A DNA stretch of 64,000 nucleotides from Polytrichum commune (lineage: Eukaryota; Streptophyta; Polytrichopsida; Polytrichales; Polytrichaceae). The notes under the pieces are model-generated. The model did not search any database. It was not told the origin of the DNA and saw only the letters and a list, made by a program, of their open reading frames with translations. Of this stretch, positions 3,887 to 47,776 are shown piece after piece (the stretch's first letter is position 1; each line of letters opens with the position of its first letter). Both the position numbers and the translations under genes were made by a program. The DNA is taken from contig OX485803.1 in the NCBI GenBank assembly GCA_950295325.1, positions 61,273,554-61,337,553 of the forward strand, written 5' to 3'.

Positions 3887-4945
3887 CATTTATGGTATTT
3901 GCAAAGGGCCTAAACTAGATGCCTAGAGGTTTCTAAGTGTCACGCCCACTAATTGACAAAATGATACCATTTGTCAATGTAAGTAGGTTTTTAAAGTGAA
4001 AATTTAGTGACTTTATCACATGTTGAGATACTTGAGATGATAGTTTGCGTTCAGGTATGCAAGGGGTTGAGCATACTAATGGGGGTGCAAGCAGGATACA
4101 GTGGACAACTCTTGATTCTTGCACATGTTTAAGTGAAAGTGTTTCAAAATAATATTCTAACTTTCAATTTTGTGAAAAAAAGAGATCATAAACTTTAAAA
4201 AAAATATTGATCTACAAAAGTCAAGCAATTTATGTTGACAAAAACAATCTCAAAAAGGTCTACATATTTTAGAAAATGGTGCAAGTGGTGATATTGAACA
4301 AGTAATTGCCAAGTTTTTGTTTAAAATGTGGTAAAATTACATTGAATTGATGATTTTCTACGAAAATATTTGACGATGACCTCAACTATATAATGAATTC
4401 AAGGAATGTGAAGATAAAAAAGAATCAAGTTAAAAATAGCTAAGGTCATGAAATTTACATCCAAAGCCAAATCTAGTCATTTTCTTTTGAATGTTATTTT
4501 TGAGGATAAGTTTTCAAGATCTCATCTTGGTATTCTACATTTGAGTAATTAGCACAACAATAGGGGTCATCATGACAAAAATCCAAATTGAACAATATTT
4601 TGGTACTACCTTTAGGCATTTGTGGTTTTATGATACCGGAGCCCTTTTTGGTCCACTTGACCATGCTTGCACCCAATGGCAAGTGTCACGTGTTTACATT
4701 TTAGCATGCAAGAGGAAAATATTCTTAAGTATACTAATGCCAAATATCATTTGTGCATACTTTTAGTGAACTTGTAGACCAATGTGCAACATATACACCT
4801 CAAATCACTACTTGAGAAACTCATGTCAAGATATTAGTGAGTACACTTGAACGTCAAGTGTCATGAGGTGACACTACTAATGAAGTTGTTGATCATTAGT
4901 GTAACCTAACATATGCCTCAAAATAGGGTAAGCAACACTCTTACA
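3887..4945 (+). mobile_element. TIR element family B, copy 2, interrupted by an insertion
   Basis: The left part (about 3887-4081) and right part (about 4675-4945) match the copy at 19152 in order and orientation. The two parts are separated by the inserted segment 4083-4674. The outer end is more decayed than in the copies at 19152 and 28712. Confidence 0.55.
4083..4674. mobile_element. Nested DNA element with 11-bp TIRs and a 5-bp target duplication
   Basis: The insertion begins GGGTGCAAGCA and ends with its exact inverse TGCTTGCACCC. It is bounded by direct repeats 'aatgg' (4078-4082 and 4675-4679). The flanking sequence rejoins as the family B reading 'gcatactaatg(g/c)caagtgtca', which is how intact copies read, so the host provides the empty-site comparison. 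There is no transposase frame, so it is non-autonomous. Superfamily not assigned from a 5-bp duplication alone. Confidence 0.7.
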
Positions 4946-5160
4946 AATAGGGTGTAAAACACATGTTTATTTCCCAAAAATATTCATTTCCGAATAACAA
5001 ACATAATTATAACCAGAAACACCTTACAACGACTTGTCTGTAATACATGCTCATCAACATTACATAAGTTACTGACCAAGGTTGGGTCATAATATTCTTG
5101 TTGTGCCGATTAATTAGAACATTATCTCACTTCCTTTAGTGAACTGCATGATGATCTTGT
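4946..5160. other. Spacer
   Basis: Short AT-rich spacer with no feature recognised. Confidence 0.6.
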
Positions 5161-39252: not shown

Positions 39253-42200
39253 TCAAGGAAAGGTGCACCCGGAATAGCCTGCAGCAAGCAGCACAGACGG
39301 AATCCCAATGTCAGCAAATCTCTACTAGTTTAGTGGCATATTATTCTTCCCTTTAATCTTGCAAAAACCTCTCCTACAAGAGGTGGTCATGGTGATAATT
39401 TTTTCTCTTCATTTAGAGAAGGAAAAATCTCACTACCCACACCCCTTTCCAAAGGTTGGGCGGCATTAAAGTGCACCAGACTCACCCACTTCTGCTGCAC
39501 CATCATCCCCAGGAGCCACGGAGAAATACAAATCAAGACAAATTCCTCCTCCTCCTCATGATTACATCCAATTGTGACCAAGGTAAACGGGTGTTATTTG
39601 GTTACTTTTCTTACTCGGACGCCTATATTTCAATGGTGTGGGGTTAGATGTGGATCTAAGAACAAACACCATCAAGACACATGTTTGAAAGAGATCGGAC
39701 TACATGTTTAAAGTTTAAGTACTCTGCAATCAAAAAGTCAACACGAGTGGAGAGACCTGTGTACTCATCTAAGGAATCAACACACATGCACTTCCGAAAA
39801 CCGCACATAAATTGGGGAAGGTGTGATTTTCAGGTTACTTCATGCAATGAGAATTTGCGTAGAGAAGAGAGAGGTGAGCATGGAGGGTAGGGGCTTACTA
39901 GGGTCGGTGATGGTGACGACGGCGGTGCCGTTGAAGTAGCAGTCCCAGTAGTTGTTGCCGCTGCGACGGTAGTAGTCATTGTAGGCCCAGGTGGCGTGTG
40001 ACGCAAGTGTGTTGGGCTGGTAGCAGCTGCCTCCCGCCTGGATAGGTCCGCAGTTAGCATAGCCCGGTCCGCACGCAAAGTTCAATCCTGTTGTCAACGC
40101 GGCATCCGATGAGCCCGACTTTGCCACACACCATGTTTTCCCTGCACACATGTCGAGGAGGAGGAGGAGGAATGTCATGTCATGCAACAAAATATCGATC
40201 GACATGCCACTCATAATTACTTCAAACTTGTGAGTCACCATGGTGCTGCTTTGAGAATTGCAACATTTTATGGTTAGCATCCCGCTTCACATCTAGTTGT
40301 TAGCGTCATTGTCGAACATTGGGAATCATTATGGGTAATTGAGTAAGGCATGCTCTCCGGGTGGTAGCTATCTGTATTGGCTCTGTATCTGTATCACCCG
40401 CAAGCTTCAGCGTCTTCGTAACATGGTTCAGTTTGAAGACGCCAAGTGTTGTTAAGAAGCGGCACTATTTTCAAGCCATCTTTATTTTATAAGCATTTGT
40501 AAGACCATAAATCTTCTTAGAAGTGAATTAAATACCTTGGGGGTCGAGATCCTCATAAGATTATTGAACAAAGATATCATGTTCTGTGGGCCTTGAGAGT
40601 CGGAGGTGCTCAAATCAAACTTCGTATGATTCTAGTCTGAATATGAGAAGCCCAACTTAGGTGTGACTATTCATAAGAAGAAAACAAATTCACGAAGCTG
40701 AATAATGCAAGGGTGACCCACGGTTCACAAAAATTGTGTCTAATTATTTCTTTACTTTTTTTTGAGAAAGCAAGCCTTTTCAAATTCACACATAAACTTT
40801 GTAAATGGGCTCCTCTTAACAACCCTGTTTAAACAAGCCTTTTGCTCCTCAACGTTGTGAAATAACAAATTATGCTTTTATTAGAAGCATCAGAGTTGCC
40901 TTAACTTAACAAACTTTGATGGGGAGTTTAGCTTAGTTGTTTTGCATACAACACCTTCCATGTTGGGTAAGTTTTGGGTGCATGCTCAGAAGGAGTTTGG
41001 AGGTTTGGAAAAAGAACATTCTATACATATTGGAACATAGAGGATCAAACTCATTTTGGCATGCCAAAGAGGTGCTAAAATGAGTTTGGTTCTCAATGAA
41101 CTGAAATCGGTGGCTCTTTCATTCGAATTCAAAACACTATCTTCAAACATCCATCACATATGGAAAGAAATTATTGATTTTGTATGCAAAATCATTCGAG
41201 ATCAACTCCCGAAGAAAAGTTCCATTGAGTTTGAGGATAAATCTTTGAGTTAGAACAAGTGATTGGATTTAGAAGCAGGTGTTCCAAAGAGGGGGAGTTG
41301 CCTTCACTCACCTGGTGGGCTGGTGTAGGGAGGGGGGGATGTTCCGGTGCTTGGAGGTGGGGCAGTTGCAGAAGATGGAGGAGTCGCAGCGGCGGGGGAA
41401 GGCGGTGGGGGGCTCGCGGGGGTTGGGGCAGGGCTCACAGACGAATTCGTGGAAGTGGGAGGAGGAGGACTTGAAGAATTCCCAGTTGACACGGCTGTCA
41501 GTCCCACATTGTACACAGGACTCTGATCCGGATTAAAAAGGCCGTAATTCCGCTCGGAGGCTGCCAACCACAAGCAAGAGTCACGAAGAATTAATCGAGA
41601 GCTCAACTTCCAAATCATTACAAATCATCGCGACACCTAAGCTAACAGAGAGTCCTCTGTAGGTGCTAAATTATCATTTTTAAATTGGACGAATCTGAAT
41701 TAGCACGGCTGGCCGCTGAACAGCCTTTAGAGGCTGCAAATTCCACATCTGCAGCCCCGTTTAATTTTGTATCAGGATAAAGTTGAGTAGTCATGTTCAG
41801 CTTGCCAATGATGTTTTGGAGACTCTCGGGAGACTTATTCGCATGTACTAAAATCCATAGCAGTATCAGGAGTAAATTATTCCTCATAGGTCCACTTCAA
41901 TTTCAGGTGTTGGCCACTTACCAGAGATCAGACTGTGGTTTGGAGCTTAACAATTTAAGTAATGAGAGAAAAATTCAGACCGACAATAAATTTTCATAAA
42001 GTTTGTTGCATCATGCCCAGAAACAATTGTGAATTTTCCAACTTTCCTTTTTTAGGCGCACATGAGATCTTTGTAGTCTGCCGCTTCACAGTGATCCGTT
42101 TAATCTTAACTATTCAAGAGTTGTGCGGTAAGGTAGGTGACGAGTTACTTGGACCGGGCTTCAGATTCTCGTTATAGAGGGCGAAGATGTAAGCGTCGAC

Positions 42201-45200
42201 TGAAACGTTGGGCTTCATGGGAGTTCCCGCGTTGGAGGTGATGTGTTTGATAAGGTTCCCGTTGTACTGCTGGGCATTAGCGACGCTCACTCCGATCTCC
42301 GTGGGATCACCAGCTGACGGCCAGCCGGTTTCACCCACCGACACGCTCACGTTTGTGTATCCGAGCCTGGCCATGGCCGCGTAGACGGCGTCCACTTGTG
42401 CGTCCAGCATGTTACCATAGTGCAAGTTTGTACCATTGTCAACAATACCTGTACTCATAGCAAAAACAAACACACCACATAAGATCACAGTGCAGCTGTC
42501 TTTTTACTCCAATCCACATATCAAGGATCACCAAATTACCCTTCGTGATCAATTGTTGTTAATGTTAAATCTGAATATGACACCAGACCGGAACAACCTC
42601 TTGCGACCATTGGCTTTTTAGGCTTTGTAAGGTACAACGGCATGCTTGTCCCTTCATTTGTAACCAAAATTATCCATTGTCCATCAATTATGTTATAGAG
42701 GTCCTCTCTTTGGAGACCTTGGCCAGGTAAATGTTCTCATATTCCCCGGGCAATGCCTCCAAAGAGGGGCCATCTTAACTATAATCGGTAGACAACGAGT
42801 AATTGTGCTTATACATGGATACAAGCAGGCCTCCTTTCCTTAGAAGCTCTTATAGAATTCAAATAGCTGAGTTTACATCAAGAAAACATTTCGAGATCCA
42901 GAAGGCAAGCTCTTACTCTATATGGGACTCTCGCGTGATATCTTAAAAATATCTCTTCCATGGTCATAATTTAGCCTCTTCATTTAGAGGAGAATTGACC
43001 TAACTGCATCTGTGCTTCACCTTCGGCTGCAATGGAGATCAAACTCAAACAGGAGTAGGCGTTGATCATCATCGGGGCGCCGGTCTGGTTGAGGAAGCTG
43101 CGTATAACTCTATTTCATCGAATTGTGACTAGGTTTAGAACTCCAAATCACGGAGTTCTTAGCCGAACAAAGAATGACACAACTCTAGGAAGAAGTACCG
43201 AACGTAGGTGCAGCAGGTGCGGATGGTCTGGTGATCAGCGGATGATCCTGCAAAGGAGGAGGTGGACATGGCGATTGTCGACAGCAGGAATAGTGAGTGA
43301 ATTACCCACCTGTGTTGTTTTGGAACAAGACGTAGTTGAGAGACACATTGGTGGCGTTGGCAGTGTAGGTTAAGTAGGGGTAGCCGTTGAATATCATGGG
43401 CCGAGGCGCCAGTCTGCTTAAGGAAGCTGAGCAACTGCGACAGGGTGGAATTATACTGAGTCTGGAAGACGCAGTATAACTCCATTGCATCGAATCGTGA
43501 CTAAGGTGCACAAGAGTGTCGCTACTCTAGGTAGAGGTGCGGGGCGTGGATGCAGATGGATTCTAATTTCTGGTGATCAGCAGATGATCCTGCAAAGGAG
43601 GAGCCGGACATGGTGATAATCAACCTCAGAATATAGTGAGTGAGTTACCCACCTGTGTTGTTCTCGAACAAGACGTAGTTGAGGGACACATTGTTGGGGC
43701 TGGCGATGTAGGCGAAGTAGGGATAGGCGTTGACCATCATGGGGGCACCAGTCTGGTTAAGGAAGCTGAGCAACTGTGATAAGGTAGAGTTATACTGCGT
43801 CTGGAAGACGCCAGCGGACGGCGGGAAGCTAGTGTTCAGAATTCCCAGCGAGTGCGGGGTCGTAACCCGCACGGTGGAGTCCAGCTTCAAGGTCACCAGG
43901 GCCGTGTGCACGTTGGTGAGGGCGGTGACGAGCTGCGAGGTCACCGACGCTGCGGCCGTTGTGAGCACCTCGTTGCCCACGGCGACCTCCACGATCTGGG
44001 TGGCCGGCATGTAAGTTGCGAGGTTGTTCTGCACCCAGGATTGCGCACCTGCGGCGGACGCAGCTAGCATCGCCACGTTGTCGTTGCCGACCGCCACGAT
44101 CACCTGAATTCCCAGGGTGGCATCAATTATCCCCTTTAGAACAGTTGTTCCTAAATTACTTCTAATATTACTACTTCTAGTGAATTGAAAATTTGTTATA
44201 ATTATATGACAAAGAGGAGCGACATGCGTGGAAAGATGCATAATGGACATTGACAAGATGAATTCATTGATAATGATTTGTGATTGAATTAGAAAAGTTT
44301 CCACCTTGATATTCGTGTTGGCGAGCGCCTGCAGAATGCTGACGTCCGCATCGTAGAGCTTCACGCTGCGCAGGGACGTTGACAGGATGAGCTTCGCAGT
44401 GACCGCTGGTGTGGGCAGATTGTTCGCCACCGTGCCGTAATTGACACCCACCACGCCCGCTCCTGCATACCCGCAAACAACACAATCTCTTGTCAGCAAG
44501 TCCCTCAACAAGATTGAAACGAACCTTTTCCCACTTGGAGAATCAAGAGATACTATGTCTGTCTGACTGACTATCTGGAGCATAAGGACGAATTGAACCA
44601 CTGAGCCCCAGCGAATCGGGAGTAAATCTTCCTACGATGGGTAGGAACACCGAGAGATTGCAGTTAAAGCAGTCTGAGCGCCCTCTGAGCGGAAGAGTCG
44701 GGTTCGTACGTTAACAAGATTCAAAGTATGTACAGGTTGAATTGAACCTTTTTTGTCACTTGTAGAATCAACAGATACTGTGTCTGGCTCACTGGAGAAT
44801 CTGAAGGACATGGACGCTTTGAACAGCTGAACTGCAGTGAATCTTCCTACGATGGGTACAAACACCGAGAACTTGCAGCTAAAAAAAACTGGGCGGAAGA
44901 GTCGGAGATCCTTGCGCAGTATGGCATGCGACCTTCGTCAATTACCAGGGGAAATTCCGATTGTCACAAAATTGAAGTACACTATGTCTGCTGATCAGTT
45001 TCGTTGGACAGATAAGGGAAGTCACTGTTGGCATCTTCCAATTACAGACAGACTTAATTCGATAGGAGTAAGACTTGACGTTTACGAGTGAGGAGGCATG
45101 ATTCAGCTAAAAATCATAGAATTACAGACAAACTACAAACAAAAATAGGTTGAGCACCGACAATAAGCCTTAGAACGCCGGTTTGGGAGGGCTCGGGAAG

Positions 45201-45526
45201 GGTTGGATTCAAAGCTACAGGATTTCGATCTCTGTGACCACAAGCAGGTGCGGTCACGCGCTACTGAACTCTATTACTTGAGGCTCTAGTGTAGGTAAAT
45301 TCCGCAATTTACAAGTTGAATTAATGTATTGCGAGCGAGAAAATTAGCCTGTGCAGAATCGTCAGCTCTTCCACAACCGGCCATGAACTCTTGAGTTTGA
45401 CGTAGCAGACAAATAGCTGTTCAATGTTTAAGGTCTGAGTTAGTTACCTGTGAACGGGAAACAATATGTTGCCAGGAACGTGAGCACCACCAACGCCGCC
45501 ATGAGGCCACGAATTAGGAACTGCAT
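39253..45526 (-). CDS. Secreted GH17 glucan endo-1,3-beta-glucosidase with C-terminal CBM43 (X8), 7 coding exons, 501 aa
   Basis: Hydrolyses beta-1,3-glucan (callose) in the apoplast. Coding exons (complement): 45448-45526, 44305-44462, 43653-44103, 42149-42448, 41312-41560, 39899-40141, 39253-39278. All introns are GT-AG, all junctions are in phase, total 1,506 nt. Exon 1 encodes a signal peptide (MQFLIRGLMAALVVLTFLA...). Mature start VGVNYG; VKLYDAD (exon 2); VAVGNEVL with the presumed acid/base Glu124 (exon 3); SVGETGWPS with nucleophile Glu269 (exon 4); KPGPTSERNYGLFNPD at the exon 4/5 join. Residues about 352-413 are a Pro/Ser/Thr linker. CBM43 spans about 414-501 with six Cys (417, 436, 443, 452, 480, 498); the sixth comes from the 26-nt last exon (YSGCTFP, stop). 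The protein ends three residues after it, so there is no C-terminal hydrophobic tail for a GPI anchor, unlike many plant relatives; a soluble wall enzyme is expected. Introns 1 and 3 contain local duplications. Confidence 0.95.
40918..41245. mobile_element. Possible diverged foldback element in GH17 intron 5
   Basis: Shares with the element at 53536 the ordered blocks 'gttgttttgcatacaa', 'gtaagttt', 'aaagaacattctata' and 'tggcatgcc'. The right end has 'atcattcgag', similar to that element's terminus. Strongly diverged, so this is tentative. It lies inside the intron between linker and CBM43 exons. Confidence 0.35.
43052..43475 (-). pseudogene. Two decayed tandem copies of GH17 exon 3 (3' part) inside intron 3
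   Basis: Copy 2 (about 43310-43472) repeats the last third of exon 3: FQTQYNSTLSQLLSFLKQTG, then in another frame NGYPYLTYTANATNVSLNY and VLFQNNTG with its splice donor. A four-base gain near 43400 ('ccgagg' versus 'gg') breaks the frame. Copy 3 (about 43052-43099) keeps only SFLNQTGAPMMINAY. The spacer between copies is repeated too ('gtataactc.att.catcgaat.gtgacta' and 'ctggtgatcagc.gatgatcctgcaaaggagga'). The spacing is about 343 bp and 325 bp from true exon to copy 2 to copy 3. Neither copy is usable as an exon. Confidence 0.9.
44515..44905. repeat. Diverged direct repeat in GH17 intron 1
   Basis: Two copies offset by about 215 bp share 'aattgaacc', 'agaatcaa.agatact.tgtctg', 'aatcttcctacgatgggta', 'aacaccgaga' and 'ggcggaagagtcgg'-type blocks. 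A third weak piece ('cactatgtctgctgatcag') may lie near 44980. This is a second tandem duplication in the same gene. Confidence 0.75.
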
Positions 45527-47776
45527 GATGATGTCCAAGTATTCCAATCGCCTCCCGCAGCTGCCTTGAATTGTCTGAGTCCTTCTACTTACCAGCCCCA
45601 AATCAATCCTCGCGTCCTCTAAGACCTCCTCACATACAAATCAGCCAAACATCACAGTCACTGCCATCTGTTACCATTGGCAGTCATGCAAAGGGTCAAT
45701 GCCTAGCCAAGTGTGCGCGATGGATAGTCTCTGGCCTCTGGAATGTCAAGCTCACCCCGCTGAATCACAAAATGAGGCCACCTAGCAGTTGTGGACTTAC
45801 GTAGACGATCAGACATTGGTTTGATAGGAGCTAGAAAAAGCGAATAATCAAGGTCCACTGTAACACCTTACCTGCACTTGAAGGGAACTTGAAGTCACGC
45901 GCGCTTGATTACAGTAACTACTCCTCCCCAATGTTGACATAAATTGTCCTACTCAGAATTGGAACATCGTGCGCCCTGTGGAGGGATCATGAATTTCTGT
46001 GCACCACAAAGTAAGTTGGTTGTCATTCAAATTGTGAGGAGCTACAATTCGTCCCTTAGTTGTATACCTCTTCTAAGTGCTGCTTATAGGAGCACTCAGA
46101 CGTATGCTGCAGTGTCATCGACTGCCAAGCTAGCTGTACTTACTTACCTGCAGCAGCAGCGACGAAGATTCTTGATCTCGGATTCGTCTCTACATGAAAT
46201 TGAGCAGCAACGTCGACTCGTAGCGTAGGATCTGGCAACACAAATTCCCACAACGGCGACACTGACAAGAGTGCCAATCAGTCTGGCACCTGTGCAGGTA
46301 GCTATGCGGCTGCTTATACTTATCGTACTGGAATTTCGCAAGCATCCAGGAATCCAGAGTTCGGCTGGTCGGCCGGCAAAGTGAAATACCTATACAGTAC
46401 TAGGACTCGGCGATACATTTATATATATTTCATATATATCATACACTATGCAAACCCACATGCTCAATTTACTGTAAAAAGTAAGTAATTACTGACAAAC
46501 TCGGCTTGCCGGCAGCCCATGAACTCTCCCGGCCTTTGCAACCGGTCAAGTCAACCACAAGCAGAAGGCAGGCTTGTGGTCGAGTATATGTTATATATGT
46601 TTGCAATCCACTGCGCCATGCAGCCTGACTGTGGTAGGGTGAAAGTGTGGACCGACTTCGAGTAGCGAGCCCTAGCTACACACACATGATGAGTCAGTAG
46701 GCTATCCACTGCTATACTAAATTACCTTTCACCATGCACTGATGGCAATTCTTGGGATTGTGATCATAAAACTAGTATTTCATACCCTGATCCCTGCACC
46801 ACTCGTGTGGTACTCTGCGATCAAATCAAGCTCAGCAAAGTGGCCAGCATCAATAAGAGAAAAGTGGGCGGCCTCTTGCAGTGAGGTAAGTTAGCAAGAA
46901 GCTCACTTATGATGATGATGATGATCCTAGGGTTTGAAAAAGCCTTTTCAATGACACCAGACTTCTTCTTTGTCCTTGTTGTCCTCACAAGTTTACAGAC
47001 TTTTGGCTGCGCCCGGCCGGGTGGGCGACAGGCGTAGGTATGTCTGTCTCTCAAGTTCAAAGTCTCCATCTCCATCTCCATCTCCATCAACCTTCGGAGA
47101 TTAATGGAGATGGCCGATTTCGTTCCGTTTGTTCAACACGGGGATTGACGAAAAGTTGGTAACCAGCTCCACGAAATTTAGGAAGGTCTTGGCCAGCGTG
47201 ATACCTACACGTGGCGAATTCCTTCCCATGATTTCATTGTTTTGAGTTGAACCAAACAACAATCTATGGTAATTGAAAACATCTTCAGTTAGGTCAATCA
47301 GTGTAGAGCGTCATTTGGTTCGACATTCAGAGCGACGAAAAAGGTGACAATGACCACATGGAATTCAATATAGTATGACGAATGTGAATATGACATGTGA
47401 CAAATGTATGTTGTATTTCAAATATTAGTTAATTTGTGTCAAATTTTAAGGCAAAGACTTTACAGTAGTAGAGAGCAGTTTTGTCTCTGTCCAATGGTCT
47501 ACATTTGTGTCTAGTTCAACACTTGGAGTGACAAAAGGTGATGATCTTCAAGTGGAATTTTATAGGGTCTTGATGAATGTGAGTATAAGATGTCACAAAT
47601 ATCCTAAAAAATTATTCACTTTTTGTTGACAATGTACAACATGGTGAACATGGTTCCAAGTTAGAACATGCCTGTAAAATTGGCACAACTAATTGAAGGG
47701 ATTTGATTTAGCATGTTGACTTTGAAGTACAAAACAACACCTACTAAATACCATGTTGTTGAGACCAAGTTTCCAA
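45527..47776. other. Upstream region of the GH17 gene and spacer
   Basis: No second gene recognised. The first kilobase must contain the GH17 promoter, but no TATA element could be tied to a start site. It contains AT-rich 'tatata' tracts near 46419-46436, a (GAT)n run at about 46910-46926 and a 'ccatct' hexamer run at about 47065-47088. A minus-strand frame across the last two is low complexity and not a gene. Confidence 0.55.

Follow-up and report, generated by a model that had tools for sequence, protein, structure and literature searches.

We report that intron 3 of a predicted plant-type GH17-X8 glucanase gene in Polytrichum commune holds a tandem array built from the end of exon 3 and the beginning of the intron itself. 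Most likely, a replication error copied this stretch in tandem, the extra units have since been decaying as intron content, and the gene itself gained its introns 2-4. The gene lies within the 64,000-nt stretch of DNA analyzed here (the window; contig OX485803.1), to which all coordinates refer.

The exons of the gene model (Table 1) join into a single reading frame of 1539 nt including the stop codon (512 aa) without any contribution from the array copies, and all five introns are GT-AG. The protein matches Pfam PF00332 (GH17; 8.4e-84, 282.2 bits against a cut-off of 28.2) and PF07983 (X8; 6.7e-18, 65.5 bits against a cut-off of 25.7), scores that were obtained with a provisional 496-aa model a few residues off the final 512-aa one, and a proline-rich linker separates the two domains. 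Its nearest solved structures are plant GH17 enzymes, and it was aligned to PDB 6jms, 2cyg and 1ghs. The open frame of the 512-aa model includes the acidic motifs VGNE at residue 121 and GETGWPS at residue 268, which we take to have the catalytic roles expected in GH17.

Table 1. Features of the GH17-X8 gene, its array and its repeat elements
Feature	Position	Strand	Basis
Gene encoding GH17, proline-rich linker and X8	39840-45526	(-)	6 exons, in-frame model from sequence alone
Exons of the gene	45526-45448, 44462-44305, 44103-43653, 42448-42149, 41560-41312, 40141-39840	(-)	In-frame model
Intron 2 (201 nt, phase 0, stop-free), shortened copy of a dispersed terminal-inverted-repeat element	44104-44304	(-)	Genome match rows, aligned copies
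AATTCAGG, 8 nt resembling a target site, which separate the element from exon 3 and supply the acceptor CAG	44103-44110	(-)	5/8 match to left exon side
Intron 3 (1204 nt, phase 1), holding the array	42449-43652	(-)	Gene model, sister-gene comparison
Copy 1, exon part E (functional; 3' 159 nt of exon 3)	43653-43811	(-)	Repeat search, alignment
Copy 1, intron part D (180 nt), donor CAG/GTGGGT at 43652	43473-43652	(-)	Alignment
Copy 2, exon part E', +4 nt frameshift	43310-43472	(-)	Alignment
Copy 2, intron part D', donor CAG/GTGGGT kept at 43309, one variable block	43101-43309	(-)	Alignment
Copy 3, remnant E'' (~50 nt, no donor)	43051-43100	(-)	Repeat search, local search
Fold-back palindrome over the D/E' junction	43447-43483	(-)	Inverted-repeat search, folding, random-end test
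Inverted-repeat dispersed MITE-like element in intron 3	~42581-42845	(-)	58 match rows elsewhere, counting both strands; 12 places aligned

An earlier note on this DNA had described a tandemly repeated exon 3 end with downstream intron sequence, the first copy intact and the others decaying, and both observations were borne out. The repeat unit comprises 159 nt from the 3' end of exon 3 and the adjoining 180 nt of intron 3, and direct-repeat pairs occur at a spacing of 339-343 nt (43290-43400/43633-43743, 86% identical; 43405-43472/43744-43811, 88%; 43227-43287/43569-43629, 85%). Copy 2 has a four-base insertion, and what is left of copy 3 is 86% identical to 43719-43768, with a flank (43102-43131/43474-43503) at 90%. 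A small local search of intron 3 against exon 3 returned two matches (E = 9e-44 and 5e-12). E and E' agree at 137 of 159 positions (86%) and D and D' at 136 of 178 aligned positions, so that the exon parts are more alike than the intron parts (Fisher P = 0.026), although part of D aligns poorly. The 46-nt cores surviving in E, E' and E'' differ pairwise at 6, 6 and 7 of 46 positions, and these near-equal distances suggest that they probably formed within a short period. Because Tandem Repeats Finder found no array in 40000-47000, a direct-repeat search was used. In a comparison of introns with exons, no exon except exon 3 was copied into introns; besides the copies, this search recovered the fold-back described below (E = 0.005), and a weak inverse match between intron 5 and exon 3 (E = 0.11) was judged to be chance.

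The D/D' alignment also contains a block, approximately at ~43490-43574 and ~43130-43232, with an excess of mismatches and an indel, whose worst 60-nt stretch has P = 0.0004. A conserved acceptor block in D was considered and rejected: the longest identical run in the alignment is 21 nt, which is not unusual (P = 0.53).

An assembly artefact, which had been named as a finding that would undo the observation, would make the copies the product of mis-joined or collapsed reads. Nothing beyond the repeat itself points in this direction. The copies are 14-24% apart and carry copy-specific indels, a divergence that speaks against an assembly duplicate, and the 781-bp array block matched only itself in the 408-Mb genome, in a DNA search that skips very common words and may let distant copies escape. 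We consider such an artefact scarcely credible.

The array had also been taken for an exon duplication, and this description does not fit its boundaries. The unit includes 159 of the 451 nt of exon 3, leaves out the acceptor and first 292 nt of that exon, and crosses its 5' splice site, and is therefore not a whole exon. Since it starts within exon 3 and spans the 5' splice site, the copies would have been born inside the intron, as intron content. E and E' both run into the donor CAG/GTGGGTAA; the claim that the copies keep donor-like sequence thus holds for copies 1 and 2 (CAG/GTGGGT) and fails for copy 3, which has none.

Could the copies serve as cryptic exons, as the earlier note had suggested? 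The frame of E, continued into D in the direction of the copy-2 donor, has two more codons before TAA closes it. Fourteen AG acceptors were tried for a cassette ending at that donor, and 13 run into a stop; the pyrimidine-rich acceptor CTCCTCCTTTGCAG at 43589 gives a cassette of 280 nt that meets one, and acceptor 43426 gives a cassette of 117 nt that is open and in frame. The suggestion thus survives for a single acceptor. Copy 2 might then be, or recently have been, a used exon, either as this in-frame insert (43426) or as a poison exon lowering expression (43589). This reading gains from the retained donor and from the CTCCTCCTTTGCAG pyrimidine tract, present in both D copies, as well as from the substitutions between E and E': 11 synonymous and 11 non-synonymous differences give a low pN/pS of 0.26, which suggests that amino-acid changes are scarcer than under plain neutrality, although the counts alone decide nothing. 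In simulations with E constrained and E' neutral, the probability of at least 11 synonymous differences ranged from 0.026 to 0.21 over nine settings and fell below 0.05 in four of the nine only, while with both copies constrained the probability of at most 11 ranged from 0.000 to 0.784 and several settings fit. A used exon is at odds with the +4 nt frameshift of copy 2, with the stops reached from most acceptors and with the unremarkable length of the longest conserved run, and we consider it unlikely. Decay of copy 2 is the likely outcome because of its frameshift, the substitution counts being undecisive by themselves. We infer that the array copies are now intron content and that splicing from 43653 to 42448 yields the conserved protein.

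How the array arose is suggested by its junctions. Exon 3 contains a hairpin (GCGTCT-TCC-AGACGC, 6-bp stem) followed by AGTATAACTC, and the last 10 nt of D before the junction with E' (GAGTTATACT) are the exact inverse of the exon 3 sequence beside this hairpin. The resulting palindrome has a left arm that is the inverse of exon 3 at 43787-43798, and the end of D', ahead of copy 3, matches the inverse over 11 nt. An inverse match of 10 nt was reached by 4 of 200,000 random D ends, and the fold at the junction beats shuffled sequences (z = -2.74 as DNA, -2.22 as RNA). This 10-nt inverted tag points to a template switch during replication. A nascent strand may have folded back on itself, copied ~10-12 nt and then changed template, a single event that would yield both the duplication and the inverted tag, with ~340 bp across the exon 3/intron 3 boundary copied in tandem. 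The array would soon have expanded to three units; since E' and E'' are each preceded by the tag, the third unit would have copied the junction. Unit 1 would have stayed attached to the rest of exon 3, its donor still joining the exon 4 acceptor at 42448 to give a normal protein, and for this reason the extra units could become intron content and decay, through the four-base frameshift in copy 2 and the loss of most of copy 3.

Tandem duplication might alternatively have created intron 3 as a whole, with the donor contributed by the first copy and the acceptor by the last (AGGT model). Both ends of intron 3 read ACAG/GT, the sister genes have no intron at this place, and gains of this kind are known (PMC4974935). 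The structure of the array speaks against the model: both kept copies lead into intron-like D (GTGGGTAACTC or GTGGGTAATTC) and not into exon 4 sequence (GTATTGTTGAC), and no copy of exon 3 was found beside the acceptor, the comparison of intron 3 with the exons yielding the described copies and the inverse of the fold-back only. The intron thus does not appear to be bounded by two duplicates, and we find this origin improbable.

Template switching within an existing intron, the origin that we favor, leaves the question of where that intron came from, which bears on the gene's relatives. A genome-wide Pfam search for GH17 gave 34 match rows, grouped into 27 genes. The domain is in one piece in 21 of them (in one only to profile position 278) and cut once near profile position 81-103 in five; the window gene is the sole one with the domain in three pieces and the only gene cut at the places of introns 2-4. 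Of the 26 sister genes, 24 could be read at the place of intron 2, all 26 at that of intron 3 and 25 at that of intron 4, and every readable one is uninterrupted there. The nearest sister, L003, is 61% identical and open from GH17 through X8. It carries an acceptor-like AG at the position of intron 1 and so does not resemble a simple retrocopy. In a tree of the GH17 genes that included three PDB proteins and excluded L025 and L028 for short coverage, L003 and the window gene are placed together in a clade with support 100/99.

From these sister genes within one genome, the simplest reading is that introns 2-4 were gained on the branch of the window gene, which looks like an intron gainer; the exon fossils would then reflect the subsequent growth of one of the introns so acquired. 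Introns 2-4 could instead be ancestral and lost from all sister genes. Introns are known to be lost via cDNA, and the comparison is confined to one species. Ancestry would nevertheless have to accommodate the absence of intron 3 from all 26 other GH17 genes, the well-supported clade that the window gene makes with L003 among these genes, the intron 1 site of L003, unlike that of a plain retrocopy, and an intron 2 that consists of a dispersed element. We regard it as very unlikely.

With 198 of the 201 nt of intron 2 as query, the genome gave 28 other match rows; the query is fully covered by two of these, a related pair, and mostly by others. The rows are not independent, as the copies at L031 and L033, flanks included, share 91% identity. 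Twenty of the 28 places were fetched, and up to two ORFs of 75 codons or longer were listed for each. In 11 of the 20 the alignment shows a longer element of 372-432 nt, in which each end agrees with CCCGGGGTGGCAACTATC / GAGAGTTGCCACCCCGGG at 12 or more of 18 letters. The family looks hAT-like. The window copy has kept its right end, 7 nt from the acceptor, and lacks its left part. By eye and with no control, exact target-site repeats were seen at L038 (10 nt), L043 and L045 (8 nt each) and near matches at L049 (7/8) and L048; the other 15 of the 20 copies showed no clear repeat or had ends that were not recognised by eye.

Together with the two G that precede it, AATTCAGG reads, in the exon 3 frame, GGA ATT CAG G (Gly-Ile-Gln), a stretch that resembles TGI or SNIQ of sister genes, and the left exon side reads AAT ATC AAG G. 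The 8-nt repeat may be an old target-site duplication that contains both splice sites, although it is suggestive only. We infer that intron 2 arose by insertion of the terminal-inverted-repeat element. This intron has a length divisible by three and no stop codon (P = 0.021 for the absence of stops, against shuffled sequences), and its donor has no G at +5, properties because of which it may be retained as an in-frame insert of 67 codons. Translation of the flanks of five other copies (L041, L042, L047, L048 and L049) gave no clear case of a second copy acting as an intron.

A broader scenario joins these observations: intron 2 would be a hAT-like miniature element spliced via its duplicated target, intron 3 would then have copied its own 5' splice site by a fold-back template switch, and the gene would be a land-plant hotspot of intron gain whose element family could be a plant introner. 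We offer it as a speculation that is rather unlikely in its entirety.

Other repeats lie in and around the gene. The MITE-like element of intron 3 belongs to a different family from that of intron 2. Intron 5 contains a high-copy dispersed repeat at ~40933-41244 (2840 first-look candidates, of which 40 were scored), and intron 4 as a genome query matched itself only. A second, independent tandem repeat of ~215 nt occupies 44500-44905 in intron 1 (78% identity in its best part, 72% over 173 columns). The ~980 bp at 44734-45714, comprising upstream sequence, exon 1 and most of intron 1, have a 93% copy on contig C7 that is split by a ~736-bp insertion (L029:3264-3365 and 4102-4985).

Boundary-crossing duplications, exon copies in introns and introns made by transposable elements are all known kinds of event. 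Potato RdRp gained an intron via tandem duplication across an intron-exon boundary (PMC4974935). As there, a segment of a plant gene has here been duplicated in tandem across an exon/intron boundary, taking splice signals with it; in potato the duplication involves the 3' side (intron 1/exon 2) and makes a new intron, whereas here it involves the 5' side (exon 3/intron 3) and enlarges an existing intron, with no new one needed. Partial duplications of MSH1 in green plants, such as exons 4-16 inside intron 14 in Vanilla planifolia, beside intron gains, likewise place exon copies within an intron of the same gene (PMC10487979), but these are multi-exon blocks and not, as here, a 340-bp unit that spans a single splice site and whose repeats are decaying. 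Tandem exon duplications that give alternative or mutually exclusive exons (PMC9013439) share the adjacent exon repeats in one gene; in contrast, the acceptor and 5' part of the exon are uncopied here, copy 2 is frameshifted and copy 3 is a remnant. The fold-back resembles template switching at replication forks, where a short inverted copy sits at a duplication junction beside a hairpin (PMC10766183), yet here it is very short (10-12 nt), old and tied to a direct 340-bp tandem duplication.

A survey reports introners in no land plant (PMC9860276). Like introners, intron 2 is apparently made from a dispersed inverted-repeat element, has a repeat resembling a target site and is absent from the 24 sister genes readable there; unlike them, it is a single case, its element is incomplete and none of the five other copies with translated flanks was clearly seen to act as an intron. 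One putative element-derived intron does not overturn the absence of introners from land plants in that survey. A literature search returned, among the matches listed, no publication on this gene or this array.

Taken together, our findings would place two routes in one gene, a mobile element forming one intron and a boundary-crossing duplication enlarging another, and the array may serve as a test of splicing choice between two donors with the same core ~340 nt apart.
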